A stretch of DNA of 58,086 nt, from contig QCNM01000002.1 in assembly GCA_003210115.1 (NCBI GenBank), positions 1-58,086 on the forward strand, read 5' to 3'. The DNA is from SAR116 cluster bacterium AG-426-A06 (lineage in GTDB: Bacteria; Pseudomonadota; Alphaproteobacteria; Puniceispirillales; Marisalimonadaceae). Position numbers and translations under genes: made by a program. A model generated the notes under the pieces. The model had not been told where the DNA came from. It was given only the letters and a program-made list of their open reading frames with translations, and ran no database searches. This document shows positions 29,553 through 31,731 of the stretch, piece after piece (within the stretch, counting starts at the first letter, position 1; each line of letters starts with the position of its first letter).

Positions 29553-30569
29553 TTAATTATTTAAACTAAACCATTCAACTTTATTAGAATTAGAAATTTT
29601 TTTTGCATATCCTGTTTTTACTAGATTTATGAGGTGTGATCTAGCTTCACCAATGGCGAAATGCATTTGTTCGTTTCCTATTTTTCTATCAAAAATTAAA
29701 CTTAAAGAGTCATAAACAGTAATATTTCTTTTTAATAATTCATTTTTTAAAATATCTAATCTTTGATTATGATGATTTATAAGTTCTACGGCTCTGCTGT
29801 CTCCGTCTTTAAAAGGCCAATCATGACAAGGGAATACTTCAACTTCAGAGTTAATGGTTTTAATGTCATTTAAATAGTTTAAATATCCCCCCAATCTATC
29901 ATCAAAAGGATCAAAAAAATTGTCTGAAACATTTGGTGATATTCTAGGAAGTAAGAAATCTCCAGCCAGATATAAACTTCTTTTTTTATCTGTTAACGAG
30001 ATATGTTCTGGAGAATGACCCACATCTGTCCTAACTTCCCATTTCCCCTCATTTGATTCAATTTTAAAACCTTCAGATATAATTTTAAAATCTGGTAAAT
30101 TAAAAACTTTGTTTTTATATAATCTTGTGGCTTCTAACATTTCTTGTTTTTGTTCCCTTGGAATTCCTGATCTTTGAAAGATATTATCAAACATAATTGA
30201 ATAGTCTTTATCAGGCATAACTAACAACCTTTTTGCTACTTCTAATTCTTTAGATGATGTAAATGCTGGAACATTTAATTTTTTTTGAAGCCAACCTGCC
30301 ATGCCAATATGATCTGGATGATAGTGAGTAATAAGTAATGAATGAATTTTTTCTGATTTTAATGGTCCATTGAGTATCTTTTCCCACATTTCAATTGAGT
30401 GATCAGATCTCAGGCCACTATCAATCAATATCCATCCATTTTTTGTGTTTAAAAAAAATAGATTTACATGATTTAAACGAAATGGAAGTTCGAATTGCGT
30501 CCAATATAGGTCTTTCCTAAGTTCATTAAATTCGCCATGCTTAGGTATTTCATAATTTAGTTTTGTCAA
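29553..30569 (-). CDS. MBL-fold metallo-hydrolase
   Basis: Metallo-beta-lactamase-fold hydrolase with a binuclear metal site: THYHPDHIGMAG (HxHxDH), the third His in DVGHSPEHISL, the bridging Asp in YLAGDFLLP and the final His in PCHDWPF. The last 70 residues form a small helical winged domain (LKNELLKRNITVYDSLSLIF), as in the lactonase/thioesterase-like subgroup with a C-terminal domain. Length 338 aa. The start is a TTG at 30569; an AGAGG seven bases before it supports that choice. It begins one base after the stop of the photolyase-like gene, so the two are co-translated; the reason for that pairing is unknown. Confidence 0.88.
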   Translation of the reverse strand: MTKLNYEIPKHGEFNELRKDLYWTQFELPFRLNHVNLFFLNTKNGWILIDSGLRSDHSIEMWEKILNGPLKSEKIHSLLITHYHPDHIGMAGWLQKKLNVPAFTSSKELEVAKRLLVMPDKDYSIMFDNIFQRSGIPREQKQEMLEATRLYKNKVFNLPDFKIISEGFKIESNEGKWEVRTDVGHSPEHISLTDKKRSLYLAGDFLLPRISPNVSDNFFDPFDDRLGGYLNYLNDIKTINSEVEVFPCHDWPFKDGDSRAVELINHHNQRLDILKNELLKRNITVYDSLSLIFDRKIGNEQMHFAIGEARSHLINLVKTGYAKKISNSNKVEWFSLNN

Positions 30570-30570
30570 T

Positions 30571-31731
30571 TTAAGCCTCTTTGTTCGTTAAACCTTGTCT
30601 TTTTAATAATTCTGGAATTTTATTTTTAAAAGGGAAAAAACCTTTTTTAGCAAATGGAAAAGCTAACCTATCCCATTCCCTTAAATAAAAAAATACATTA
30701 ACATTATTATTTGTAAATTTATTTAATAGATTTTTTCTATTCAACAAACATTTGCCTTCAGTCTCATAAGGTATTATCAAATTTTTAATCTTAAATTTAG
30801 TTATCCAATTAATCAATTCCTCATCACTTAATGCATATGAAATGTGAGTATTATTATTAATTATTTCTTCACATAAGTTATTTTCAAAGTTTTTAATTAG
30901 TTCGCTTTGATCAATTAATGAATTATCACTGTTAAAAAGGCATGTTTTAAAATTAATATCTTTTTTTAAAAAAGAATCTAAAGAAAAATCATTTTTGTTA
31001 ATGATTAATCCAATATCCTCTAAATTACTAAAGGAAATTTTTTCAAATTCTTTATTAATAATTTGTTGATTAAAGCTTGATTGACTTTCAAGGGGCGAAG
31101 CTGTTTCATTTAGTTCATTAACAGGGTTAAATTTATAGTTTGTAAACTTATAAATATTATCTGCACGCGCAATGTAATTTTTTCCAATAGTCTGTAATCC
31201 TGCCACCCATCTCCAACTCAATGTATTTACAGCAGGGCACCAATCGAGTAAATTTTTTTGAAAAAAAATCGCACCATCAATCCAATCTTTTTTTAGTGTA
31301 AAGATCCATATGCTTGCATACCACATACGTGCATGATTGTGTAAATAGCCAGTTTCAATTAATTCTTGTGTCCAATAATCAAAACATTTTATGCCTGTCT
31401 TTTTAGGAGGTTCTACATATTGTATTTTTTTTTCATATTCATTCCAGATTATTGGATGAAGTTCAAGCCATCCTCTCCAATAGGTTCTCCAAAAAATTTC
31501 TTGAACAAATTTTTCTATTTTATTTGGTTTAAACTTTTGAAACGCAATATCCAAAATATCTATTTCTGATATTAACCTTCTACCTATATATGGTGAAAGA
31601 GTAGATACATTTGTATGAGGTGAACCCAAATCAAAATTTCGTTTAGAACTATAATCAATTAAATTTTTATTAATAAATTTATCAAATTTTTCTTTTATTT
31701 CTGAAGTTTTTGTAGGAAATTGTGAGCTCAT
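30571..31731 (-). CDS. Photolyase/cryptochrome-like FAD-binding protein with domains in swapped order
   Basis: The first 215 residues are the FAD-binding helical half of DNA photolyases/cryptochromes: YSSKRNFDLG, STLSPYIGRRLISE, FVQEIFWRTYWRGW, ETGYLHNHARMWYASIW, LLDWCPAVNTLSWRWVAG and YIARADNIYKFT follow the canonical order. The normal N-terminal antenna (Rossmann-like) domain is missing in front. Instead the C-terminal part (about 250-386) looks alpha/beta, with LIIPYETEGKCLLNRK, NVNVFFYLREWDRLAFPFA and KKGFFPFKNKIPELL, the last resembling the end of a photolyase antenna domain. This is a circularly permuted arrangement (inference). Photochemical activity cannot be judged. Length 386 aa. 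Co-translated with the MBL-fold gene. Confidence 0.83.
   Translation of the reverse strand: MSSQFPTKTSEIKEKFDKFINKNLIDYSSKRNFDLGSPHTNVSTLSPYIGRRLISEIDILDIAFQKFKPNKIEKFVQEIFWRTYWRGWLELHPIIWNEYEKKIQYVEPPKKTGIKCFDYWTQELIETGYLHNHARMWYASIWIFTLKKDWIDGAIFFQKNLLDWCPAVNTLSWRWVAGLQTIGKNYIARADNIYKFTNYKFNPVNELNETASPLESQSSFNQQIINKEFEKISFSNLEDIGLIINKNDFSLDSFLKKDINFKTCLFNSDNSLIDQSELIKNFENNLCEEIINNNTHISYALSDEELINWITKFKIKNLIIPYETEGKCLLNRKNLLNKFTNNNVNVFFYLREWDRLAFPFAKKGFFPFKNKIPELLKRQGLTNKEA

Follow-up and report, generated by a model that had tools for sequence, protein, structure and literature searches.

A 386-residue protein encoded on the reverse strand of the window (the whole 58,086-nucleotide stretch of SAR116 cluster bacterium AG-426-A06 that was analysed) carries the FAD-binding half of a photolyase at its N-terminus and an alpha/beta half after it. 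This reversed domain order is real and conserved. Very probably the gene product is a flavin photolyase and belongs to the NewPHL / short photolyase-like class. That class is already known, having been described in 2020, and the gene would be a further member of it. Thus, a protein of sunlit-ocean bacteria that would be filed as an ‘FAD-binding domain-containing protein’ is likely a light-driven repair enzyme, and its odd second domain can be tied to the photolyase antenna fold. The features of the locus, all on the reverse strand, are as follows.

30571–31731, reverse strand: coding sequence of 386 aa, probable inverted-topology photolyase (NewPHL / short photolyase-like); ATG at 31731, TAA at 30573–30571
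31075–31731, reverse strand: helical N-terminal FAD-binding catalytic domain, residues 1–219 (Pfam PF03441, PDB profile and structural match)
31021–31074, reverse strand: linker, residues 220–237, variable in the alignment and with partly lower pLDDT
30592–31020, reverse strand: C-terminal alpha/beta domain, residues 238–380, predicted to be five-stranded, Rossmann-like and of photolyase antenna fold (AlphaFold2 model and structural matches)
31324–31347, reverse strand: YLHNHARM, residues 129–136, from alignment with canonical photolyases; N132, R135 and M136 are invariant in 31 homologues
31207–31245, reverse strand: DWCPAVNTLSWRW, flavin-contacting loop, residues 163–175; D163, N169, W173 and W175 are kept, C165 is found in SAR116 only
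30613–30681, reverse strand: REWDRLAFPFAKKGFFPFKNKIP motif, residues 351–373, from alignment of homologues; D354 and F365 are invariant
29553–30569, reverse strand: MBL-fold hydrolase, the next gene; TTG start, Pfam Lactamase_B E 1e-22

The FAD domain and its active site

The initial annotation placed the FAD half of a photolyase at the N-terminus, and this was borne out by profile and structure alike. Photolyases and cryptochromes of the PDB match the protein sequence from residue ~7–13 to ~190–194 (profile E 1e-24), so the catalytic half starts at the N-terminus, and Pfam FAD_binding_7 covers residues 111–196 (E 7e-14). An AlphaFold2 model of the whole protein, built with a 31-row alignment as input, had a pLDDT of 88.8 and a pTM of 0.88, and its residues 1–219 superpose on photolyase/cryptochrome FAD domains with Z scores of ~14–16 over ~195–217 residues. 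Indeed, the FAD domain matched only photolyases and cryptochromes in Pfam, PDB sequence and structure searches. Neither profile nor structure revealed an alpha/beta domain ahead of it, the first residues lying already within the FAD domain, while the usual final ~60 residues of an FAD domain are missing. The protein is not a DASH cryptochrome as modelled by NCBIfam crypto_DASH (38 bits, cut-off 317), and its alpha/beta domain does not come first.

Active-site residues were placed by alignment with canonical photolyases of Alphaproteobacteria. The dimer- and flavin-contacting residues of Escherichia coli PhrB, E274, W277, N341, R344, M345, D372, N378, W382 and W384, correspond in that order to E78, W81, N132, R135, M136, D163, N169, W173 and W175, none of which varies among 31 homologues. 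By this alignment, the key residues with which class I enzymes bind a CPD (cyclobutane pyrimidine dimer) and flavin are kept. The inner two tryptophans of the photolyase triad have counterparts in W173 and W150, which would form a dyad; W150, equivalent to W359 of E. coli PhrB, is likewise invariant in the 31 homologues. No residue aligned with the outer triad tryptophan, W306 in E. coli. A tryptophan dyad has been reported for the Dinoroseobacter shibae NewPHL (PMC8948257). Of the flavin contacts listed for Synechococcus elongatus photolyase (PMC9426592), 8 of 13 are identical here, the five changes being T to V42, W to F75, T to Y129, D to C165 and A to V168.

The change at position 165 is a new, modest detail that appears specific to SAR116. 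In the 31-row alignment this residue is Cys in 13 of 13 SAR116-clade members and Asp in all 18 remaining rows; Asp also stands at this place, beside the flavin, in the canonical photolyases that were compared. The site (window 31237–31242, reverse strand, residues 164–165; SAR116 homologues L010–L026) shows a second feature, the residue before the SAR116 Cys being always W, F or Y in place of Gly.

By analogy with the class, the N-terminal helical domain would bind FAD and a flipped-out CPD, the most likely substrate being a CPD in single-stranded DNA. On absorbing blue or near-UV light, the reduced FAD would pass an electron to the CPD, and the dimer would split as the electron returned. Photoactivation would proceed through two tryptophans, W173 and W150, not three. 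We infer FAD binding, CPD repair and strand preference from the class. Since the stretch of ~60 residues with which an FAD domain usually ends is absent, the C-terminal antenna-fold domain, which follows the catalytic domain, probably serves to close the flavin pocket. In the abstract that introduced NewPHL, the C-terminal domain is said to seal the FAD site from solvent.

Photolyases and cryptochromes belong to the same fold family, and cryptochromes typically have a regulatory C-terminal part. The protein might thus be a photoreceptor of cryptochrome type, no longer able to repair DNA and using its C-terminal domain for signalling, and the SAR116 change from Asp to Cys beside the flavin could alter the photochemistry. 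We consider this reading improbable: none of the CPD-contact residues varies between phyla, the gene has no conserved signalling partner beside it, and characterised members of the inverted arrangement repair CPDs (PMC13274461).

The C-terminal domain

No Pfam or NCBIfam model matched the protein beyond residue ~206, and Pfam PF00875 (DNA_photolyase) matched none of the 31 members. With the PDB sequence profile no chain was convincingly matched past the FAD domain, that is, no solved structure of the class was found. The initial annotation had proposed a test for an antenna fold in this half. Modelled alone (residues 232–386), the domain gave a compact beta-alpha fold with five strands and a pLDDT of 84.9. 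When the two halves of the protein were superposed separately, the modelled first half matched photolyase FAD domains and the modelled second half photolyase/cryptochrome antenna domains, the latter over 140–149 residues. The top four VIA-align matches to the C-terminal model were photolyases or a cryptochrome: 6kii (Z 9.4, 140 residues), 1dnp (9.2, 144), 6dd6 (8.8, 140) and 1np7 (8.7, 145). These matches start at chain residue 1–6 and three of the four end near residue 172; in 6kii, a photolyase, residues 6–172 superpose on the model at 3.3 Å over the 140 residues.

By the note that accompanies the tool, Z scores of 8–9 are modest, and the antenna assignment therefore leans on coverage and context. 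The domain could instead be a HUP/Rossmann-like nucleotide-binding domain, akin to universal stress proteins (USPs) or PPATs, that was recruited independently and resembles the antenna by chance. In Foldseek alone, USPs, PPATs and cryptochromes were intermixed with weak E-values and the best E-value belonged to a USP domain (7ji4), while in VIA-align USPs and N-type ATP pyrophosphatases reached Z scores of 8.0–8.6. Direct comparison of the C-terminal domain with canonical antenna domains by hhalign also gave no signal (probability 2.8%). The USP and pyrophosphatase matches, however, span 98–115 residues, typically about 105, and stop at model residue ~120, whereas photolyase and cryptochrome antennas mostly cover 136–149 residues and are the only folds to cover the whole domain with its terminal helices. 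Moreover, FAD-domain relatives in the same bacterial order are followed by a separate gene that clearly encodes an antenna domain (profile E 7e-10 against canonical antenna domains). The C-terminal domain can be aligned over its full length with this split antenna gene, scoring 17.8 where 60 column-shuffled controls reached at most 11.7, at an hhalign probability of about 30%. We therefore regard independent recruitment as unlikely and an antenna-type origin of the C-terminal domain as likely, though short of sequence proof.

The initial annotation had also pointed to a REWD...P.A.KGFF.FK..IP motif in the second half. It was found, as REWD...P.A.KGFFPFK..IP, at residues 351–373 and is conserved among homologues, D354 and F365 being invariant in 31 of them. 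This REWDRLAFPFAKKGFFPFKNKIP motif likely corresponds to (Y/F)KVFTPFxxAW, with which canonical antenna domains end. Both the hhalign comparison with the split antenna genes and the structural alignment, which extends to model residue 150, support this register.

Class membership, distribution and neighbourhood

The initial annotation knew of no assigned function for such proteins, but the domain order, the second domain, the tryptophan dyad and the lack of an Fe-S motif fit NewPHL, a class whose function has been assigned. This group includes A8LJA9 of D. shibae and M7YZC8 of M. mesophilicum (Emmerich et al. 2020, NAR 48:12845), together with Phr7 of Prochlorococcus. It is characterised by inverted topology and single-strand CPD repair (PMC13274461, PMC9426592), and Phr7 lacks the four-cysteine Fe-S motif (PMC9426592). 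NewPHL and the protein share an N-terminal FAD domain, an atypical C-terminal domain, the absence of Fe-S cysteines, a tryptophan dyad and a class I-like active site, and the C-terminal position of the second domain is kept in full-length homologues. SAR116 members differ from NewPHL as described in having Cys for the second flavin-loop Asp and in a loop that is shorter ahead of residue 111. The probable assignment to NewPHL is based on architecture, residues and relatives from related bacteria.

Several other photolyase groups are similar in part. The short photolyase-like proteins (SPL) of Xu et al. (2021, MBE 38:4505; cited in PMC9178010 and PMC9649867) share with the protein an FAD domain that no alpha/beta domain precedes and a similarity to class I/III CPD photolyases; some SPL carry Fe-S cysteines, which the protein lacks. 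Phr4/Phr5 (two genes) and Phr6 (fused) of Synechococcus and Cyanobium also have the FAD domain first and a DNA-photolyase domain second; Phr4 and Phr6, however, possess four Fe-S cysteines, and their antenna domain is recognised by standard models, neither of which applies here (PMC9426592). The four conserved 4Fe-4S cysteines of Fe-S SPL and Phr4–Phr6 were not found in the gene, which has no clustered cysteines and nothing like WCESCTADC, its only Cys residues being 116, 165, 264, 287 and 328. Split forms comparable to Phr4/Phr5 sit on another branch of the tree. The class I CPD photolyases (E. coli PhrB, S. elongatus) and the class III Agrobacterium tumefaciens PhrA (4u63) have the same FAD-domain fold and active-site residues, but compared with class I the protein has reversed domains and lacks both the final ~60 FAD-domain residues and the outer triad tryptophan.

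A homologue scan with one genome per species identified 47 loci encoding relatives, most of them full length, at 30–97% identity. These occur in SAR116, other Alphaproteobacteria, Gammaproteobacteria, Verrucomicrobiota (Opitutae and others) and Planctomycetota, and the nearest are from SAR116 single-cell genomes (95–97% protein identity). The number of loci, their mostly full length and their spread over several phyla exclude chance and gene fragmentation as the source of the arrangement. The possibility that the gene is a fragment or pseudogene, raised at the outset, is excluded as well by full-length homologues in several phyla that share its domain order. In a class-wide sample, 16 of the 190 genomes had a full-length match (rows covering nearly the whole profile); no relatives were found on viral contigs with this query. 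In the FAD-domain tree all 38 proteins of inverted arrangement form one group (98/98), which is distinct both from class I and from two-gene photolyases and which includes Ruegeria and Roseovarius, members of the Roseobacter group, the wider group of D. shibae. A long DASH-like row was unreliably placed in this tree and no conclusion was drawn from it. The genome to which the window belongs also encodes a class I-type photolyase, cut by the contig end, and a DASH-like photolyase in the usual order.

The MBL-fold hydrolase that the initial annotation described as cotranslated with the gene does lie on the same strand at a 1-base gap. Only the nearest relatives in SAR116 (L004–L010, L012, L013) share this adjacency and the neighbours differ further out, which rules out the hydrolase as a general functional partner; it is a clade-limited, incidental neighbour outside the repair system. 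In two unrelated lineages, one Planctomycetales and one Pseudomonadales genome (L032 and L033), the gene adjoining the inverted photolyase encodes a PF04244 (DPRP, PhrB-type) photolyase, which agrees with a role in photorepair. AarF/ABC1/UbiB kinase-family genes adjoin or lie near the inverted photolyase on plasmids of Ruegeria, Peteryoungia and Asticcacaulis (L051, L052, L054), and a DUF3429 gene adjoins it in L053 and L054.

Two-gene forms and the origin of the reversed order

The bacterial order of the SAR116 genome includes sister families in which FAD-only relatives of ~265 aa are followed on the same strand by a separate gene of ~146 aa. The FAD gene lies directly upstream of the ~146-aa gene in 19 of the 20 loci examined, mostly overlapping it by a few bases; in the remaining locus (L118), which is near a contig end, no FAD gene was found upstream. 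It is this ~146-aa gene whose profile matches canonical antenna domains, and two of its products also hit Pfam DNA_photolyase at E 2e-4, below the curated cut-off. The occurrence of two-gene and fused inverted forms within one bacterial order is a new, if modest, finding, and it opens the question of how photolyase domain order arose to direct test.

The initial annotation saw in the arrangement a circular permutation. The reversed order itself stands, but as a mechanism permutation is not needed to account for it, since fusion of neighbouring genes (or fission) explains the order as well. That a canonical class I gene was permuted by duplication and trimming is possible, if somewhat doubtful: both domains match canonical folds and their order is exactly reversed, yet a path through fusion or fission is offered by the two-gene versions, which occur in sister families within the order, in Deinococcus and in Synechococcus (phr4/phr5, PMC9426592). 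Because two-gene and fused inverted forms coexist within one bacterial order, circular permutation need not be the source, and we consider gene fusion at least as likely. A literature search on photolyases and circular permutation returned nothing relevant.

Short photolyase-like proteins have been stated, as quoted in PMC9649867, to lack an alpha/beta domain. This may be true only of the single open reading frame, and the Synechococcus phr4/phr5/phr6 case had already pointed to an antenna domain encoded after a short photolyase. A broader scheme can be put forward tentatively, in which ‘short’ photolyases keep their antenna domain, encoded after the FAD domain in an overlapping gene or fused to it, the inverted order arose through fusion of neighbours, the two-gene state is perhaps ancestral to all photolyases, and the SAR116 flavin is tuned by Cys in place of the flavin-contacting Asp.

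The two-gene inverted loci from other families of the order are L063–L067, L103–L117 and L119–L122. A two-gene form is also present on a plasmid of Deinococcus sp. QL22 (L055) and in another alphaproteobacterium (L123). These last two versions have clustered cysteines resembling an Fe-S motif, which L063–L067 lack.
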